From Candidatus Rhodoblastus alkanivorans (GTDB lineage: Bacteria; Pseudomonadota; Alphaproteobacteria; Rhizobiales; Beijerinckiaceae): a stretch of 64,000 nt of DNA. The notes under the pieces were generated by a model. It made no database searches and was not told where the DNA came from. It worked only from the letters and a program-made list of their open reading frames with translations. Position 1 is the stretch's first letter, and each line of letters opens with the position of its first letter. This document shows positions 7,683-38,620 of this stretch, in pieces. A program made the translations under genes and the position numbers. The stretch covers positions 1,009,501 through 1,073,500 of the forward strand of contig NZ_JAIVFP010000001.1 in the NCBI RefSeq assembly GCF_022760755.1, written 5' to 3'.

Positions 7683-8879
7683 ATGGGCAATATTTTGAAA
7701 CCGAAGGCCGCGACGGGATTGACGATCCAGCTTGACGGCTCCCTGGCGCAGCGCGCCGCGGGCGCCGCTCTGAAATGGGCGCCAGCGAGCCGACGTTCCC
7801 GGCTCTATATCCTTGCGGTCATGCTCCCCACCCTGTGGGCGATGCTTTATTACGGACTGATCGCGTCCAAACGTTATGTTTCCGAGGCGCAATTCGTCGT
7901 GCGCAGCGTCTCCAGCCAGCGGCTGAGCGGCCTGCAGATGTTCTTTCGTTCCTTCGGTCTGTCGCCGGCCGCCGACGACGCCAATGCCGTCGAGAGCTAT
8001 TTGCAGTCGCGCGACGCCGTGCGCGCGCTGGCCGGCAAGTTGCCGCTGCGAGAGATGTTCGGCCGCAAGGAAGCCGACGTATTCGCGCGCTTTCCCCATT
8101 TTTATCTTTGGCCGCGCAATTCGTTCGAACGGCTTTACGACTATTACCTCGAACGGGTGACCGTCGTGCGCGATCCGACCACCGGAATCACGGATTTGCG
8201 CGTCATCGCCTTCGACCCCCGCGACGCGCAGGAAATCGCCCAGGAATTGTTGCAACTGGCCGAGGCCATGGTCAACCGCATGAACGCCCGCGCCGAGAAG
8301 GATGCGGTGAAATCCTCGCTTGATGATCTCGCCATGGCCAACGCGCGGCTGGCGGCGTCGCAAAAGAGCCTGGCCGCCTATCGCAAAGAGGCGCAATTCC
8401 TCGACCCCGCCTCGACCTCCGCCTCCATCCTCGAGACGATCACCAGTCTCTCGAGCGATCTCGCCTCCGCGACGGCGCTTGCGGAGGAGATGAAAAAGAC
8501 CTCGCCAGCCAATCCCGCGATTTTCTCGATGTCGCAGAAAATCAATTCGCTTCGGGACGCCATCGACGCCGAACGGCAAAAAATCGCCGGCGGCGACCGC
8601 GCCGTTGCGGCCAAGCTTGCCCGCTACGAACAATTGCTGCTCGATGAGAAGCTTGCCGAAACCGGGGTGGAGGCCGCGAATGTTTCGCTGGAAGTCGCGC
8701 GGCAGGACGCCCGCAAGCAGTCGATCTATGTCGAGGAGGTGGTCGAACCCAATCTTGCCGACGAATCGACCGAACCGCAACGATTGCGCATGATCGCCAC
8801 GGTCTTCGTATTGTCCTTCGCCATTTTCGGCGTGATCTGGCTGCTGGTCGCCGGAACCAAGGAACATGTCGTCAGATGA
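7683..8879 (+). CDS. kpsE: Capsule polysaccharide export inner-membrane protein, KpsE/CtrB type (first copy)
   Basis: The 398-residue protein has the polysaccharide co-polymerase (PCP-3) layout: an N-terminal membrane helix at about 42-62 (LYILAVMLPTLWAMLYYGLI), the conserved ASKRYVSEAQFVVRSV right after it, a long periplasmic coiled-coil section, the conserved VVEPNLADESTEPQRL, and a C-terminal membrane helix (VFVLSFAIFGVIWLLVA). KpsE-type proteins link the ABC exporter to the outer-membrane channel. The ATG at 7683 starts a four-gene operon; its stop overlaps the kpsM start (ATGA). A second, diverged copy follows kpsM. No outer-membrane channel gene (KpsD/Wza) is present in the window. Confidence 0.85.
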   Translation: MGNILKPKAATGLTIQLDGSLAQRAAGAALKWAPASRRSRLYILAVMLPTLWAMLYYGLIASKRYVSEAQFVVRSVSSQRLSGLQMFFRSFGLSPAADDANAVESYLQSRDAVRALAGKLPLREMFGRKEADVFARFPHFYLWPRNSFERLYDYYLERVTVVRDPTTGITDLRVIAFDPRDAQEIAQELLQLAEAMVNRMNARAEKDAVKSSLDDLAMANARLAASQKSLAAYRKEAQFLDPASTSASILETITSLSSDLASATALAEEMKKTSPANPAIFSMSQKINSLRDAIDAERQKIAGGDRAVAAKLARYEQLLLDEKLAETGVEAANVSLEVARQDARKQSIYVEEVVEPNLADESTEPQRLRMIATVFVLSFAIFGVIWLLVAGTKEHVVR

Positions 8880-31396: not shown

Positions 31397-31664
31397 TAGA
31401 GCGTTTTCCGACCATATTGACGCAGTCTGCCGAGGGGATTTCGCGCCGTGGCCAGGAGGGTGGCGACGGCCGTGTCGGGGACACGGCCGAGCCGACCGAC
31501 GCCGCGACGGCGCGAAAGCCCCCGGCCCGAAGGGTTCGCTTTCGGCGGACGCCCGGCGTCGCGCGCGCCTCGACCGCATCCCCAATGCGCTCTTCGGCGC
31601 GCGCTTGCCGGATCGTCTCTCCGAAAGCGAACAGATTGCGTCAATATGGTCGGAAAACGCTCTA
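31397..31664. mobile_element. 268-bp MITE-like element, copy 1
   Basis: The element is bounded by terminal inverted repeats of at least 28 bp, beginning TAGAGCGTTTTCCGACCATA at 31397 and ending with its reverse complement at 31664. It matches copy 2 (38353-38620, opposite orientation) with three differences that I count by eye in 268 bases. It starts and ends with TA, as IS630/Tc1-type miniature elements do. Inside it has a hairpin (GGCCGTGTC / GACACGGCC near 31469-31489) and a longer-range inverted pair (GTTCGCTTTCGG / CCGAAAGCGAAC). It has no transposase gene. Its right end supplies the TAG stop of the TonB receptor gene. Confidence 0.8.
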
Positions 31665-34091
31665 GAACTTCACCCGCAGGCCGGCGTAGAAGGACAAAGG
31701 CTGGGAGGGGACGAGCATTTCCGGATTGGTGAAGGCCTGGAACAGGGACGACGTGTCGAAATAGGTCCCGTAGGTGTAATAGCGCTGGTTCAGCAAGTTT
31801 TCGGCGCGGGCGAAGACCTCGACATCGCGCGTAATCTTGTAGGCGCCGTTGAGCGAGACGGTGGCGTAGCCCGGAATCTGCGGCTGCTGGTTGGAGGCGT
31901 CGCCGGCATAGCGCATCGGCCCGGTGATGAGGACGTCCGCGCCGACGCGGGTTCTGGAATTGATGTCCCAGTCGAGGCTGATTTTCGCGCGCTGGCGCGG
32001 GATCAGCGGGATCTGGTCGCCGGGGACGACATAGATATTGCCGCTGGCGTCGGCTGAAGGGCTGTTCGAGCCGAGCGTCAGGTAGTTGCGGAAGGTCGCG
32101 TCGATATAGGCGTAGGTGGCGCGGACGGTGAAGGGGCCCTTGCGGTAATTGATCTGCGCTTCGACGCCCTGGCGGAGCGTGTCGCCGACATTGGCGAAAT
32201 AGCCGTAGCCCTGCAAATAGGGGTCGGGAATATTGAGGATGTCGTTGAGGCTGAGGGTGCGGTAGACGCCCGCCTTCCAGCCCACCGCGCCCCAGTCGTC
32301 GGCGAGAACATGCTGTCCGCGCAGGCCCGCCTCGAAGGTCTGGGCCACGACCTGCTGGAGCGGCGGGTCGGAAACCAGGAAGCTCGCCATGAGGCAGGGC
32401 TGCTGCGGATTGGCGCAGCCGAGTTCGAGCGGCGTCGGCGCGCGATTGGCTTCCGAGAACGAGCCATAGGCCAGCAGGTCGGGCGTGATCTTGTAGGTCA
32501 GGCCGACCATGGGATTGACGTGGGTATATTGGCTGTCGCCGTTGACGTCGCCGCCGAGCTGGTCGGAGAGCGAGATCGAAGCGATGTTCAGGCGCGCGCC
32601 GGCCGAAAGGGTCAGCTTGTCGGTGAGGTCGAGCGCGTCGAGGGCATAGAGGCCGAAATAGCGGTTGTAACTGTTGACGCTGACGGGGCCTTCGGTGACC
32701 GGTTCGCCGGAGTTCCCGATAATGACGCCGCTGCCGAGGACATAATAATTGGGCAGGATGGTCGCCAGTTCGGGCGTGGCGGCGTAATTGGTCGCGCCGA
32801 AATCGAAGCTCGCGCCCAGGGTCGCGTGGTTCTTCAGGCCGAACAATGTGTCGCTGTTGGTGAGCTGCGCGTTGGCCCCGGCGCTGGTGGTGAGGATGTG
32901 CGAATAGTCGATCTCGCCCAGCACCGTGTTCGGCGGGAAGGGATTGGCGAGCTGCTGGCCGTTCACGCCATTGGCCGGCGTCGAATCGTCGCCGAAGCAA
33001 AGCTGCGACGGGTCGGCGCAGGGCTGGACCGAGGTCGCGTTGCCGTCCACCGTGTGCTGGATATAGCGGCGGACATAGGCGTTGGTGGTGAGGCTCCAGG
33101 TCGGCGACAGGTTGAAACTGCCGGAGAGCGCGATCTGCCCGATCTGGTAATGCTGGGTCTGCGGATAAGTGTAGGTGCTGCCCCAATATTGCTGCAGCAT
33201 CTGGATCGGGGCCGGGCCGCTCGCGCCGAATTCATTGTCGGCGAGGCCTAAGGTTAGGTGAAATTCATTGCCGTTGGCGCGATAGCCGAGATCGCCATAG
33301 AAGCGCTTGATGGCCGAGGCGCCGTCGATACGGAAGCCATTGTCCTGCACGCCTTCGAGCGCGCCATAAAAGGCGAAATCGCCGACCTGCTTGCCATATT
33401 CCACCGCGCCCTGGATGCGGCCGTAGGAGCCGCCGGAAATCTGGAGCTGGCCGCCCTGGTTGTTGAAGCCGTCCTTCATCCTGATATTGACGGCGCCGCC
33501 GAGCGCATTGAGGCCATAGACCGGATTGGCGGAAATCATGTCCATCGAGGCGATGGCGAAGGTCGGGAGCGCGTCCCAGTTCATCGTGTCGCCGAAGGCC
33601 TCGTTCACGCGCACGCCGTTCTGATAGATGGCGAGGCCCTGTGGCGTGCCTTGGATCGGCGACGAGACGAAGCCGCGAAAGACCACGTCGGGCGAGAGCG
33701 AATTGCCGGAAGCGCTCTGCACGTCGACGCCCGGCGCGAGCTGTTGGAGGACGGCGGCGGCGTCGGGCGATCCGACGCGCGAAATCTCTTTCGCGTTGAT
33801 GCGGGTGTTGTTGGCCGGCGTCACGTCGCGGGTGAAATCGAACGGGGCGGCGCTGGGCGGCGGCGCGGCCACTGGCGGCGCCGCGACACCAGGGGCGGCT
33901 TGACGCGTGACGACGGGCGTGGCCGCGACGCGGGGCGCGGGGGCCGGGCGCGCCGCAACCCGCGGCCGGGCGCTCGGCACGTCGGTGGTCACGTCGATGT
34001 CGGGAAGCGGCTGTCCGCTCTGCGCAAAAGCGAGCGCCGGCGCGCCGAGGACGGCGACGGTCGCGAGAAGGGCGGAGCGCAGGCGGTTCAT
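31662..34091 (-). CDS. TonB-dependent outer-membrane receptor
   Basis: The 809-residue protein starts at ATG 34091 after GGGGAA, with a signal peptide (NRLRSALLATVAVLGAPALA, cut near AFA-QSG). A Pro/Ala-rich linker comes next, then the plug domain (DAAAVLQQLAPGVDVQSASG; GLAIYQNGVRVNEAFGD; NPVYGLNALGGAVNIRMKDG) and a 22-strand barrel ending in YAGLRVKF with a terminal aromatic residue. TPLELGCANPQQPCL is typical of TonB receptors for organic ligands or vitamins, but the ligand is unknown. The stop codon TAG lies in the terminal repeat of the 268-bp element. The gene follows a sensor kinase on the same strand. A TonB/ExbBD set is not in the window. Confidence 0.9.
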   Translation of the reverse strand: MNRLRSALLATVAVLGAPALAFAQSGQPLPDIDVTTDVPSARPRVAARPAPAPRVAATPVVTRQAAPGVAAPPVAAPPPSAAPFDFTRDVTPANNTRINAKEISRVGSPDAAAVLQQLAPGVDVQSASGNSLSPDVVFRGFVSSPIQGTPQGLAIYQNGVRVNEAFGDTMNWDALPTFAIASMDMISANPVYGLNALGGAVNIRMKDGFNNQGGQLQISGGSYGRIQGAVEYGKQVGDFAFYGALEGVQDNGFRIDGASAIKRFYGDLGYRANGNEFHLTLGLADNEFGASGPAPIQMLQQYWGSTYTYPQTQHYQIGQIALSGSFNLSPTWSLTTNAYVRRYIQHTVDGNATSVQPCADPSQLCFGDDSTPANGVNGQQLANPFPPNTVLGEIDYSHILTTSAGANAQLTNSDTLFGLKNHATLGASFDFGATNYAATPELATILPNYYVLGSGVIIGNSGEPVTEGPVSVNSYNRYFGLYALDALDLTDKLTLSAGARLNIASISLSDQLGGDVNGDSQYTHVNPMVGLTYKITPDLLAYGSFSEANRAPTPLELGCANPQQPCLMASFLVSDPPLQQVVAQTFEAGLRGQHVLADDWGAVGWKAGVYRTLSLNDILNIPDPYLQGYGYFANVGDTLRQGVEAQINYRKGPFTVRATYAYIDATFRNYLTLGSNSPSADASGNIYVVPGDQIPLIPRQRAKISLDWDINSRTRVGADVLITGPMRYAGDASNQQPQIPGYATVSLNGAYKITRDVEVFARAENLLNQRYYTYGTYFDTSSLFQAFTNPEMLVPSQPLSFYAGLRVKF

Positions 34092-34275
34092 CTGTTTCCC
34101 CAAACTTTGGCAGGCGGCCGTTCGACCTTGGCTGTTTTTCCGCCGCCCCGGGTTTCGCCGCCACGGCTCCCGGCCGGCGCCATTTTTCGTCATAATGAAG
34201 ACACTAATATAAGCTGGTTTGATCGGGAAGATTTGCTCCGGGGAAAGCATCCTGATCGAGCAGGAAAAAATCCCG

Positions 34276-34298
34276 GCGTCTATATTAAACCTAGACGC
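34276..34298 (-). terminator. Candidate Rho-independent terminator after the sensor kinase
   Basis: On the minus strand GCGTCTA-loop-TAGACGC (34298 to 34276) is followed by CGGGATTTTTTCC. It lies 45 bp beyond the kinase stop codon and before the TonB receptor start, so it could end the kinase transcript and separate the two genes. Confidence 0.45.
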
Positions 34299-34343
34299 TG
34301 AGAATATTTTAGCTATTGCCTGTGATCTATTTGCAACAAGTTG

Positions 34344-35681
34344 TCACAAATCTTTCCCTTGCGCCAGCGGCAGGGCCGCCTCGACCAGCCCGCCGCCGCC
34401 CGGCGCCTCGCCGAAGCTGAGACTTCCGCCAAGGCTCAAGACGCGCTCGCGCATCCCGGTCAGGCCGAGGCCCGGCGGCTTCGACGGATCGATCCCGACG
34501 CCGTCGTCCTGGACGCGGACGCGGATTTCCGGCGGCGACACGTTGCGCGACAGGACGATCGAGGCGTGGGTCGCCCTGGCATGGCGATAAATATTGGTGA
34601 GGGCCTCCTGAACCAGCCGGTAGAGCGCAAGTCCGGTCTTCTCGTCGGGCGGGTCGAGCCCCTGCGGCAGGCTCAGTTCGATATCGACGCCGGGCTCGGT
34701 TTCGCGCCAGCCGTCCACCAGGATTTTCAGCGCCTCGCACAGCCCCAGTTCGTCGAGCGCGGGCGGGCGCAACTGGCGTAGAATGCGCTTGTTGTGGCCC
34801 TGCAGCGACTCGATCTCGCCGCGTATGGCGGCGACGCGGCGTTCAAGCTCCTCCTGTCCCGAATTTTTAAGGCCTTTTTCGAGCAGGCTGGCGTTGGCGC
34901 GCAGGGCGAAGAGATAGGGGCCGATCTCGTCGTGCAATTCCCGCGCGATCCTTTTGCGCTCGTCTTCCTGCACCTCCATCAGGCGCTGGATCAGGGCGCG
35001 ATTGGCGTCCGACAGGCTTTGCAGCGCGGCGGCGAGGGCGTTGATCTTGGCGCAGAGGTCGTGAAACTCCGGCGATCCGGCGGCTTCGACCCGCGTCCGG
35101 TAGTCGCCGTCGCGCAAGGCGCCGAGCGCGCCCGCGCAGCTCTCCAGCGGGGCCAAGGTGCGGCCGAGGATGAAGCTCGCGCCGATCAGGGCCGCGAGCG
35201 CGATCGCGCCGCCGGTCAGGGCCAGATTGCGGACATCCTGCCAGACCTCGTTGACCTCGTCGGCGGGATCGCTGGCGATGACGATGTCGCCATATTTGCG
35301 GCCGTCGATCACCGCCGGCAGGATCGTCAGATGGGCGCGGGCGTGGATGAGGGCGTCGAACCAGGACGGCGATTCGCGCCGCGAAATGTCCGGCGCAAGC
35401 GCGGCCGCCGGGATTTGTCCGGTATCGTGGACGAAGGCGATGCGGACATGGCGCAACGAATCGAGGCTGCGCGCGAGATGGCGCAGGCTCGCTTCGGGGG
35501 CGGGGGCGCCGTGGAAATTGTTGAACGCGGCTTCGACGAAATCGCGCGTCACCCTGGTCATCGCCGCGCTTTCGGCCTGGACGCGGGCGCGGGCGTTGAC
35601 CGCCATGCGGCCGATATCGGCGGCAAGGCCAAGCAGAAGCACCAGGCCGAAAAGAAGGTCGATTCGAATTTTGAGCGACAT
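34344..35681 (-). CDS. NarX/UhpB-type sensor histidine kinase with LapD/MoxY-like periplasmic domain
   Basis: The 445-residue protein starts at ATG 35681 (MSLKIRIDLLFGLVLLLGLA, first membrane helix). A periplasmic segment (about 35-155) contains SLRHVRIAFVHDTG, ESPSWFDALIHARAH and YGDIVIASDPADEVNEVW, which resembles the LapD_MoxY_N sensor. After a second helix comes HAMP (SFILGRTLAPLESCAGALGA), then HisKA_3 with the phosphorylated His in ERKRIARELHDEIGPYLFAL and an ATPase domain with VQEALTNIYRHARAT and VQDDGVGID. No response regulator gene lies beside it, which is unusual for this family. Gene order suggests it may control the TonB receptor downstream; that is inference. Confidence 0.85.
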   Translation of the reverse strand: MSLKIRIDLLFGLVLLLGLAADIGRMAVNARARVQAESAAMTRVTRDFVEAAFNNFHGAPAPEASLRHLARSLDSLRHVRIAFVHDTGQIPAAALAPDISRRESPSWFDALIHARAHLTILPAVIDGRKYGDIVIASDPADEVNEVWQDVRNLALTGGAIALAALIGASFILGRTLAPLESCAGALGALRDGDYRTRVEAAGSPEFHDLCAKINALAAALQSLSDANRALIQRLMEVQEDERKRIARELHDEIGPYLFALRANASLLEKGLKNSGQEELERRVAAIRGEIESLQGHNKRILRQLRPPALDELGLCEALKILVDGWRETEPGVDIELSLPQGLDPPDEKTGLALYRLVQEALTNIYRHARATHASIVLSRNVSPPEIRVRVQDDGVGIDPSKPPGLGLTGMRERVLSLGGSLSFGEAPGGGGLVEAALPLAQGKDL

Positions 35682-35784
35682 GAGGCGAAGGCCGCGCCGG
35701 GCTGCGAGCGGGCGATGGTCGAGCCCGTCCCGCCTCAAGTCAAGGGCTTCCGGCGCCAACTCAGCGCCGCCGCGCGAAGCCGCC

Positions 35785-36558
35785 TTAGGCGCCTTCCCAA
35801 TAGCTTTCGTCGAACGAATAGCCATAGGCCTTCATTTCAGGCCCGCACAGGCGCTCGAAAAGGGCGCGTCTCGGCTCGTCCCACAGATCCGCGAGGGCGA
35901 GGACGCGCCGGGCGGTTCCCGCCTCGGTCTCCTGCGGACGATCCTTCTGGAAGGCCTGGGTCATCGCCGCCACATTGGCGTCGGCAAGGTCCAGCAAATG
36001 GCCGATGGCCGCGGCGGCCGTCGTGGGATCCCGGATCAGATCCTGTTGATCGACCTCGACATATTTGTCCCGCGGGATTTTGTCCCGCATGAGCCTCCAG
36101 GCTTCCATGTTTCGCGCCCAGTCGCGGCAATGATATTCGAAATTATGGCCGGGAAATTTTTTCAGGCGGGAAACGATATTCTCGATGGCGCGCCTTTTAG
36201 CGAAAATGAACACGCTTTCGGGCCAAAGCTCGAGCAAGGTCGGGATCGCCTCGATCATTTCGGGATTGCCGGTCTTGTCGAACCACGGCGCGTCGGGATT
36301 GTGGCGGTTGACGACGTCGCGGAAAACGACGGCGATCGAATCCATCAGCGCCTCCTTGTCGACGACCGAGGCGAGAACCTTCGGCCCGTCATTGCCGAAC
36401 GTGGCGAAATGGCGGTCGATGAAACGGCCGAGAACCGTCAGCAGGCTGAGAAAATTTCCCTCGCGGAAACCATTGTAGCCCGCGCGCAGCATGCCTTCGG
36501 CGAGCGCGCTCGTTCCCGACCGGGGGGAGCCGATGATGAAGACTGGATATTTCGCCAT
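35785..36558 (-). CDS. Sulfotransferase family protein
   Basis: The 257-residue protein begins AKYPVFIIGSPRSGTSALAE, the 5'-phosphosulfate-binding loop (PSRSGT-type) of PAPS-dependent sulfotransferases. The 3'-phosphate-binding region is likely VFIFAKRRAIENIVSRLKKF, with the conserved R and S. It should move sulfate from PAPS to a carbohydrate or small molecule. The ATG at 36558 follows AAAGGCGG. It is encoded upstream of the kinase with a 100-bp gap. A link to the surface polysaccharide is possible but unsupported by position. Confidence 0.8.
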   Translation of the reverse strand: MAKYPVFIIGSPRSGTSALAEGMLRAGYNGFREGNFLSLLTVLGRFIDRHFATFGNDGPKVLASVVDKEALMDSIAVVFRDVVNRHNPDAPWFDKTGNPEMIEAIPTLLELWPESVFIFAKRRAIENIVSRLKKFPGHNFEYHCRDWARNMEAWRLMRDKIPRDKYVEVDQQDLIRDPTTAAAAIGHLLDLADANVAAMTQAFQKDRPQETEAGTARRVLALADLWDEPRRALFERLCGPEMKAYGYSFDESYWEGA

Positions 36559-37026
36559 CAATTGCCAATCCGCCTTTCACGACAAGGATTTATTGGCCGC
36601 CCGCCAGCCGGGGCTCGCGGGCGCTTCCGGGCGATGGAGCGTCGCGGGGAGGCCTGGAGCAACCTCAATCATTTCCACATGAATCGTCTTCGGCCCGGCG
36701 GCGTCTCGTCTTTCGAAAATTTTGCGCTGACGGTCGGAGAGAGTGGGCGAGCATTCGTGAAAACTTTAGTTTCGGGGCTGTTTTCATAGCTTCCGGCTTT
36801 ATCGCTGTCCAGCGGCCTCGGGCGCGAGGCCAGGCTCCAGCCCAAATCCTTGTCCAAAGTTCAGCTCTGCGGAAAAATATTTCATCTTGCCCTTGCCAAC
36901 AGGCATGCGTTATCGGCAATATGAATAATCGCGAAAGTATGAATAAGTGCGCATAACGCCGCCTCGCGGCACATTGTGGCGGCAGCGAAACGACAGACGC
37001 CCGCGCCTCGGAGACGATAGCGAAAC
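36559..37026. promoter_or_regulatory. 468-bp gap with candidate ArsR operator at 36907-36959
   Basis: No gene is supported in this gap. Near its right end TATGAATAA occurs twice (36920-36928 and 36938-36946, 18-bp period), flanked by an inverted repeat GCGTTAT (36907-36913) / ATAACGC (36953-36959). This AT-rich block lies about 70 bp before the ArsR-family gene and is a good candidate for its autoregulatory operator. It does not match the published ATTC-N8-GAAT SqrR pattern exactly. Confidence 0.5.
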
Positions 37027-37386
37027 ATGCCCTCCGCCCTGGACATTCACGCGCATGCCGACGAGGCTCCGACGAGGGGGCCCGTTGACGCAGCGGCGCT
37101 CGCCGACGCGGCCGATCAGGCCAGCGACTTTCTCAAATCGCTGGCCAATCCCGTGCGGCTGCGGATCCTGTGCCTGCTGGCGCAAGGCGAATCGCCGGTC
37201 GGCGACATCGCCGAAAAGCTCTCCGCCCGGCAAAGCCTGATTTCCCAGCATCTCGCCTTGCTGCGGAAGGACGGCCTCGTGCGCCCCCGCCGCGATGGCC
37301 AGACCATCCGCTACGCATTGGCCGACGAAAAGGCCGAACGGCTGATCGGCGTGCTCTACGAATCCTTCTGCCCGGTCAAGCGCTGA
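37027..37386 (+). CDS. ArsR family regulator, BigR/SqrR-like
   Basis: The 119-residue winged-helix repressor contains DFLKSLANPVRLRILCLLAQ, the recognition helix ARQSLISQHLALLRKDGLV and the wing RPRRDGQTIRYALAD. Cysteines at 49 (RILCLL) and 115 (YESFCPVKR) sit where BigR and SqrR have the pair that forms a persulfide or disulfide bridge in response to sulfide or oxidants; no metal-binding CxC motif is present. It is followed by a pirin gene 90 bp downstream in the same direction, possibly a target. A sulfur-related ligand is inferred from the cysteine positions alone. Confidence 0.82.
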   Translation: MPSALDIHAHADEAPTRGPVDAAALADAADQASDFLKSLANPVRLRILCLLAQGESPVGDIAEKLSARQSLISQHLALLRKDGLVRPRRDGQTIRYALADEKAERLIGVLYESFCPVKR

Positions 37387-37476
37387 TAAAAAGCTTGCAT
37401 TTCGGCAAAGGCTGACAGGCGCGAACTTGTCGCGCGCCGCCAGTCCGCCAATGTCTCGGAGCAAAGGAGACATGGC

Positions 37477-38355
37477 ATGACCGTCATGCAGGATTTGGAA
37501 GCGCGAAAGGATTTGGACGCGCGAAAGGTCGTCGCCGTCACGCGGGGCGAGGCGACCTCGGACGGCGCGGGGGTGAAGATGATTCGCCTCATCGGTTCGG
37601 CCGCGCAGCCGCCCGTCGACCCATTCCTGATGCTCGATTTCTTCGGCTCCGAACAGCCCGGCGATTATATCGGCGGCTTCCCCGATCACCCGCATCGCGG
37701 CTTCGAGACGGTAACCTATATGCTGGCGGGACGGATGCGCCACCGCGATAATCACGGCCACTCGGGGGTGATCGAGGCCGGCGACGTGCAATGGATGAAG
37801 GCCGGGCGCGGCCTGATTCATTCCGAAATGCCGGAACAGGACCACGGTCTGATGCGCGGCTTCCAGCTCTGGATCAACCTGCCCGCCGCCGAGAAAATGT
37901 CGCCGCCGGCCTATCAGGAATTCAAGGCGGCCCAGATTCCGGTCGAGACGCGAGAGGGCGCCCGGGTCAAGATCGTTGCCGGCGCGGGGGCGTCGGGCGC
38001 GCTCGGCCCGGTCCGGGCGCCGCATGTGGACGCCGTCTATCTGGATGTGGAGCTTGCGCCCGGCGCGACCTTCAGCCAGGCCCTGCCGGCGGATCACCAG
38101 GCCTTTTTCGTCCTTTACGAGGGCTCGGCTTCCGCGCCCGGGGACAAAGGCGAGCAGGCGGTCGAGGCGCTCGCCCTCCTCGCGCTCGGCGCGGGCGGGG
38201 AGGCGGTCCTGACCGGCGGCCCGCAAGGCGCCCGCGCCCTGCTGCTCGCGGCGCGACCGTTGCGCGAGCCCATCGCCTGGAGCGGCCCCTTCGTGATGAA
38301 CAGCCGGCAGGAGCTGATCCAGGCTTTCGAGGATTATCGGGCGGGTCGATTCTAA
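37477..38355 (+). CDS. Pirin family protein
   Basis: The 292-residue bicupin has the pirin N-terminal core VDPFLMLDFFGSEQPGDY and the metal-binding motifs DHPHRGFETVTYML (two His), then HSEMPEQDHGLMRGFQLWIN (His and Glu). Pirins bind Fe; some act as quercetin dioxygenases or redox sensors. Start ATG 37477 lies seven bases after GGAG. The leader has a small direct repeat (LEARKDLDARK). Its stop codon TAA is formed at the boundary of the 268-bp element copy 2, which may have replaced the original 3' region. Confidence 0.9.
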   Translation: MTVMQDLEARKDLDARKVVAVTRGEATSDGAGVKMIRLIGSAAQPPVDPFLMLDFFGSEQPGDYIGGFPDHPHRGFETVTYMLAGRMRHRDNHGHSGVIEAGDVQWMKAGRGLIHSEMPEQDHGLMRGFQLWINLPAAEKMSPPAYQEFKAAQIPVETREGARVKIVAGAGASGALGPVRAPHVDAVYLDVELAPGATFSQALPADHQAFFVLYEGSASAPGDKGEQAVEALALLALGAGGEAVLTGGPQGARALLLAARPLREPIAWSGPFVMNSRQELIQAFEDYRAGRF

Positions 38356-38620
38356 AGCGTTTTCCGACCATATTGACGCAATCTGTTCGCTTTCGGAGAG
38401 ACGATCCGGCAAGCGCGCGCCGAAGAGCGCATTGGGGATGCGGTCGAGGCGCGCGCGACGCCGGGCGTCCGCCGAAAGCGAACCCTTCGGGCCGGGGGCT
38501 TTCGCGCCGTCGCGGCGTCGGTCGGCTCGGCCGTGTCCCCGACACGGCCGTCGCCACCCTCCTGGCCACGGCGCGAAATTCCCTCGGCAGATTGCGTCAA
38601 TATGGTCGGAAAACGCTCTA
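38353..38620. mobile_element. 268-bp MITE-like element, copy 2 (inverted relative to copy 1)
   Basis: This is the reverse-complement counterpart of the element at 31397-31664, with the same length and terminal repeats; the three differences that I see are near the ends. Its left end begins TAAAGCGTTTTCCG, so it carries the TAA stop of the pirin gene. Its right end (ACGCTCTA at 38620) lies 36 bp before the stop of the hybrid kinase gene. It has no transposase; long open frames in it, rich in Arg and Pro, are not likely to be genes. Confidence 0.8.

Follow-up and report, generated by a model that had tools for sequence, protein, structure and literature searches.

Introduction

Miniature inverted-repeat transposable elements (MITEs) are generally classified and tracked by means of their ends, and their interior is treated as decay. 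Here, we analyze a 268-bp MITE-like repeat, two inverted copies of which frame a 6.7-kb segment in Candidatus Rhodoblastus alkanivorans (Beijerinckiaceae; assembly GCF_022760755.1, 4.35 Mb in 5 contigs, 98.3% complete). Both copies lie in the window, that is, the whole 64,000-nucleotide stretch of contig NZ_JAIVFP010000001.1 that was analyzed (positions 1,009,501 to 1,073,500). Unlike in the usual MITE, the core of this repeat is conserved and the ends differ between relatives.

The closest described systems were compared through parts of the published sources. RUP of Streptococcus pneumoniae, a MITE related to IS630-Spn1 (PMC2229807), shares with our repeat the IS630-type ends, the TA target, the lack of coding sequence and a stable fold. 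However, RUP is 107 bp long, occurs in about 108 copies and its insertion sequence (IS) is known, whereas our repeat measures 268 bp, occurs in five full copies, carries a cloverleaf core in common with elements bearing other ends, and yielded no partner IS. The GTAG and CGTC repeats, which belong to the repetitive extragenic palindromes (REPs; Di Nocera and others 2013, PMC3733652), resemble it in their paired inverted hairpins, in a CGTC at the foot of the arm read on one strand, in ends that frequently contribute a TAG stop codon, and in the nesting of some dimers within longer palindromes; the donation of stop codons by GTAG repeats has already been published. In the passages compared, CGTC repeats have stems of 8-9 bp starting with A-T pairs, loops of 4-5 bases and a CCA tail, and target duplications are not described, whereas our repeat has arms of ~98 bases with two internal loops, set within IS-type ends, and does not conform to the CGTC type.

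Two further families are set apart by their descriptions, as far as these were compared. The CIR of Caulobacter and Brucella (PMC2229807) likewise has two hairpin arms, but a linker connects them, with GANTC in a loop, and an end stem is lacking. QMITE2, which was described in Coxiella and has relatives in Bradyrhizobium and Rhodopseudomonas (PMC5896051), is a MITE with a long palindromic stem that is partly common to alphaproteobacteria, but it has direct repeats of 7-9 bp and a single stem. Neither the core nor a placement of IS630-type MITEs at stop codons was found described in the open-access literature searched, and a full-text search for the end sequence returned papers that were unrelated, as judged by their titles.

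Structure of the repeat and its core

Each repeat is read as a copy of a non-autonomous mini-transposon with IS630-type ends, which partly supports an earlier, preliminary description of the window, and we consider it likely that it represents a mobile element with a conserved core whose ends differ among relatives. The ends tell how the element moved, and the core tells what was kept. Exactly as first described, the two repeats are 268 bp long each, inverted, and separated by three differences (element positions 29, 41 and 266), while a repeat finder returned arms 31397-31667 and 38350-38620 with 99% complementarity and a spacer of 6682 bases. Their parts, in window coordinates, are as follows (L numbers are working handles for loci, G for genomes and C for contigs).

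31397..31664, + strand: full element copy 1 (L001), 268 bp, TA at both ends
31397..31428, + strand: copy 1 left end, IS630-like terminal inverted repeat (helix 1 of the fold; end match)
31429..31526, + strand: copy 1 hairpin arm 1, with AGGAG at 31454-31458 and CGACG at 31497-31501
31527..31533, + strand: copy 1 central mini-hairpin, CC-GAA-GG, within GCCCGAAGGGT
31534..31632, − strand: copy 1 hairpin arm 2, weakly resembling arm 1 in inverted orientation (33 bits), without AGGAG
31633..31664, − strand: copy 1 right end, IS630-like terminal inverted repeat (helix 1 of the fold; end match)
38353..38620, − strand: full element copy 2 (L004), 268 bp, three differences from copy 1
38589..38620, − strand: copy 2 left end in element orientation (fold and alignment)
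38491..38588, − strand: copy 2 hairpin arm 1 (fold)
38385..38483, + strand: copy 2 hairpin arm 2 (fold)
38353..38384, + strand: copy 2 right end, starting TAAAGCG
31662..31664, − strand: stop codon TAG of the TonB receptor gene (target TA plus first G of the element)
38353..38355, + strand: stop codon TAA of the pirin gene (target TA plus element end)

The terminal inverted repeats pair over 32-33 bases, slightly longer than the minimum of at least 28 bp given before, and in copy 2 one end reads TAAAGCG in place of TAGAGCG. The TA at both ends and the absence of a transposase gene inside the element were likewise seen in the window copies. Folding gave −196.6 kcal/mol, compared with a mean of −120.65 (sd 4.85) for 200 dinucleotide shuffles, none of which was as good (z −15.66), and because of this fold and the five full copies in the genome the repeat is far beyond chance. 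The interior folds as a cloverleaf, in which an end stem encloses a hairpin arm, the mini-hairpin and an inverted second arm. A stem with three hairpins was obtained for 24 of 29 folded rows, or 23 of 28 distinct elements.

Two half-elements in G003 carry an arm 1 that is 73-74% identical to that of our repeat, with changes of both partners in 8 of 40 pairs, and are bounded by other ends (GAGCGGGATG). A covariance model of arm 1, named R1, was applied with a cut-off of E 0.001 and strict filters and matched 18 of 397 genomes of the family, which fall into 8 of 43 genera and include two training genomes. The loci taken comprised 20 R1 places and 17 further stretches. Clear inverted ends were present in 17 of the 20 R1 loci; L366 and L370 had none, and L369 was shortened. 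Both arms of an element match R1 in opposite orientation, and the core is therefore an inverted pair.

Among the 33 distinct non-training arms, counted after 7 mirror rows of 53 had been dropped, AGGAG is present in 32 and CGACG in 28. Changes on both sides were found in 37 of 40 pairs, with a covariation of 0.710 as compared to at most 0.103 when slid, and a structure-free alignment (A5) showed AGG A and CGAC to be invariant in 12/12 rows. As a control, R1 was run on 54 sources (555,614 bases) containing 57 ends of other hairpin repeats, where our repeat alone scored below E 0.14; R1 is not a general hairpin finder. A comparison with Rfam gave no match in the window at the gathering score and none for eight loci at E 0.1.

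Ends of the repeat and of its relatives

The ends of our repeat agree at 16/17 bases on both sides with the ends TAGAGCATTTTCCGACC and TAGAGCGTTTTCCGATC of an annotated IS630 in Bradyrhizobium barranii (L402), which was found in a plasmid search with an IS630 element of G004. The latter (L052; 1055 bp, DDE_3 transposase, ends TAGAGCGTTTTCTGA and TAGAGCATTTTCTGA) agrees at 15/17 and 14/17, and two IS5 ends agree at 11/17. IS630 elements prefer CTAG for insertion; all five copies of our repeat lie in a Y-TA-R target, which is CTAG in two. The IS630/Tc1-type origin proposed in the preliminary description thus holds for the ends, and the interior is not IS630 material.

A length of 268 bp, terminal inverted repeats, a missing transposase, TA duplication and empty orthologous sites mark the repeat as a MITE, and the end match together with insertion at TA places its ends with IS630. 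In the own genome, the 27-base end (up to 3 mismatches) occurs at 10 places, all of them ends of the five copies, and in 396 other genomes of the family it has no occurrence. An IS630 element with the same terminal repeats, which the preliminary description proposed to look for, was sought in these 397 genomes and none with a transposase was found. An own-end query against plasmids returned three records, none with an annotated IS under the match, and the one inspected lies within an amidohydrolase gene. Searching the genus for DDE_3 gave hits in 9/11 genomes; the own-genome relatives of this IS630 transposase are broken and, where inspected, without such ends. Two of these relics are interrupted by one and the same 1.29-kb element (L324 2344-3639, C1 ~667.8-669.1 kb; L325 2553-3849, C1 ~3084.6-3085.8 kb), in both cases within the same conserved motif of the coding sequence, as though this motif were its target; by eye, we take this element to be of the IS110 type.

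In most of the relatives examined, the core is flanked by other ends, which resemble IS5-family ends of two types. Elements of G023, G056, G364, G315 and G386 have GAGGCTGT ends, start GAGGCTGTYA and show TA/TA in 13/17, while those of G029 (Terrarubrum) and G118 start GAGCCTGTTT and show equal TNA/TNA in 5/10 (TCA, TTA, TTA, TAA, TGA). Not a single element fits the target pattern of the other group. The count omits rows for L362 and L364 and does not include L366, L369, L370 and L359, and L371 is the same element as L391. Since flanks match in L391/L392 and in L372/L374, which are probably shared old insertions, the 17 TA-type elements do not amount to 17 independent events. The G023 end agrees at 18/18 and 17/18 with an IS5-family element of Methylobacterium radiotolerans (L397, TA), and the G029 end at 17/19 and 16/19 with one of Gluconobacter oxydans H24 (L399, TTA), so that end sequence and target duplication both point to IS5-type ends. 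The transposase domains of these IS5-family elements are DDE_Tnp_1 and DUF4096, and we presume the two end groups to be IS427- and IS1031-like.

Genomic copies and target sites

The preliminary description held that a sequence without further copies, or a lack of empty sites in relatives, would speak against mobility. Besides the two window copies, full copies were found at C1:3967618, C1:4111637 and C1:1783227, making five in total. Four are 99% identical to the query and differ pairwise at 2 to 4 positions, and C1:1783227 is 93% identical with an 8-base deletion. All five have flanks of the form Y-TA[GAG or AAG ... CTC or TTC]TA-R; conceptual rejoining of the targets gives, apart from the two CTAG, TTAG twice and TTAA once. 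In copy L005, both ends are altered together at two base pairs. A lone 36-base piece (L007 1501-1536, C1:3904853-3904888), 94% identical to element positions 225-260, is probably a relic of another copy.

At the two window sites, relatives are free of the element: the pirin gene ends in TTC-TAG in G006, G004, G008 and G001 and in TGA in G005, G007 and G010, and no copy follows the TonB gene in G006, G005, G007, G008 and G004. Because both sites are empty there, the window insertions are younger than the split from the relatives compared. A plasmid search with the element gave no match at E 1e-5, and an exact end-pattern search of the genome contigs found nothing. Weak element matches in 87 family genomes (two candidates scored per genome) were mostly short GC-rich stretches and were discarded; two of the seven inspected are presumably, by eye, a coding gene of the flagellar ring type.

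Three of the five copies are inserted in the TA of a neighboring gene's stop codon, leaving TAG or TAA. These are the two window copies, at the TonB and pirin stops, and L005, whose stop is donated to a gene that we take, by eye, to be apt. Among the tolerated YTAR sites of the window, 4/40 are stops (after removal of four element ends, subtracted by hand), and the bias of 3/5 against 4/40 is reflected in a Fisher p of 0.021. The preliminary description was right about a MITE-like element and overlooked both the insertion at stop codons and the conserved folded interior that is not derived from IS630. In relatives, 6/27 elements adjoin a called stop, and in Terrarubrum the annotated PTS IIC gene runs up to the base just ahead of the element. 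A contig end of G006 carries a partial relative (86% over 63 bases), which also adjoins a called TAG stop, and the two half-elements of G003 do not adjoin one.

Interpretation of ends and core

From these data, a sequence-based model can be drawn up in which an IS630 transposase, by now missing or defective in this genome, mobilized the copies in trans. The core may be kept for a function; its most probable role would be that of a two-way 3'-end structure protecting or insulating the transcripts of upstream genes, and it could outlive a switch of transposase by taking on new ends. Stop-codon sites would be either preferred or tolerated, as stop codons provide TA and TNA targets and GAG ends restore stops. 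That ends of IS630 and of two IS5 types were actively exchanged around a functional mobile cloverleaf core carried between genomes is tentative, and we give it slightly less than an even chance. The nature of the core as an RNA or DNA structure, like its function, is inferred.

Several observations weigh against this interpretation. Neither the own genome nor the 396 others yielded an IS with these ends, no transposition was seen, and among the matches listed for an exact 14-base pattern of the relatives' ends in ten genomes that carry such elements there was no inverted end pair at IS spacing. The IS5 end matches come from short queries with E 4 to 5 and are weak alone; weight is therefore placed on three further features, namely that the match starts at an IS terminus, has an inverted counterpart and comes with the same type of duplication. 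The second arm of our repeat lacks AGGAG and scores 33 bits, and alignment A4 was fitted to the model structure and includes training rows as well as mirror rows. Two copies of the own genome are located between divergently starting genes, a placement that fits poorly with a purely 3'-end role, and many copies in relatives are also upstream of genes.

The textbook origin of MITEs, an IS630 deletion derivative with a decayed IS as interior and a fold that is a by-product of the inverted ends, would account for IS630 ends and TA duplications, but we regard it as quite improbable here, as the core shares runs of at most 11 bases with the IS630 interiors compared (L052 and L402; best E 0.14), a resident IS with the same ends is missing, and the arms recur with covariation and fixed motifs between other ends in other genera. 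Alternatively, the ends might have drifted from one ancestral pair in step with changing transposases, so that their likeness to IS630 and IS5 only looks borrowed. All ends start GAG or GGG and most target TA, the two IS5 end types share GAGSCTGT, and the ends of L005 changed together at two pairs, all of which would suit such drift; the 16/17 agreement of the own ends with IS630 as opposed to 11/17 with two IS5 ends, and the TNA and TA duplications, which stand for different transposition reactions, make it unlikely.

A credible minority option is that the core serves in cis as a DNA structure for transposition, for instance as a cruciform or by binding a host factor or another recombinase, rather than as RNA. 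The element is near-symmetric with two inverted arms, both strands fold alike, the motifs AGGAG and CGACG are fixed in both arms, and some known REP dimers lie within longer palindromes in the passages compared (PMC3733652). Against this stands the count of 60 G-U as compared to 25 A-C pairs in non-training arms, a weak hint at a folded single strand, given that the alignment was made with RNA scoring.

With a conserved interior and differing ends, end-based searches would split one core family into several unrelated ones. A functional core would further provide a natural experiment, with the same folded module behind many genes and sister species without it. Settling in stop codons would suit GC-rich genomes, in which few TA or TNA targets exist outside such codons and a stop is retained through the GAG ends.

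The intervening 6.7-kb segment

Pfam confirmed the gene names given before for the segment (TonB receptor, histidine kinase, sulfotransferase, ArsR and pirin) and identified MsrA and a hybrid kinase outside it. The preliminary description had suggested that the inverted repeats could allow inversion of this segment, and near-identical inverted copies 6.7 kb apart may indeed raise the idea of its moving or flipping as part of an invertible or composite unit. Comparison with relatives revealed the same msrA|TonB junction in G006, G004 and G008, and the same pirin|hybrid-kinase junction in G006, G004, G008 and G007; the first junction is missing in the stretch seen of G005 and G007, and the G005 contig ends at the second. 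As these junctions match, the present orientation is ancestral at both segment boundaries, and inversion is not supported. In five relatives (G006, G005, G007, G008, G004) the TonB and pirin genes are on different contigs, and the gene order inside the segment is therefore not conserved. Each copy moreover sits in its own stop codon TA, and the window pair, with three differences, shows no greater similarity than is seen with the distant copies (2 to 4), all of which renders an invertible or composite unit very improbable. For the latter reason, local gene conversion between the window copies, also raised before, was not favored and was rejected.

Other repeats at YTAR sites

Stop codons were also examined for the YTAGAGCRTTTTC repeat class, whose 57 ends comprise 10 stop, 44 intergenic and 3 coding sites, while other YTAR sites comprise 13, 178 and 66, respectively. 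The resulting p of 0.016 for stop versus intergenic sites is based on 57 of 145 listed ends, 40 chosen regions and a home-made gene caller. In G008, a single TA is common to the stop codons of TonB and msrA, with no repeat there. In G004, this shared stop TA carries an unrelated TAGAGC...GCTCTA repeat with TA on both sides (L226 about 8619-8722, G004:C54). The YTAGAGCRTTTTC repeat ends number 60 in G002, 29 in G010, 21 in G003 and 18 in G009, and 1 to 7 in each of the other seven genomes.

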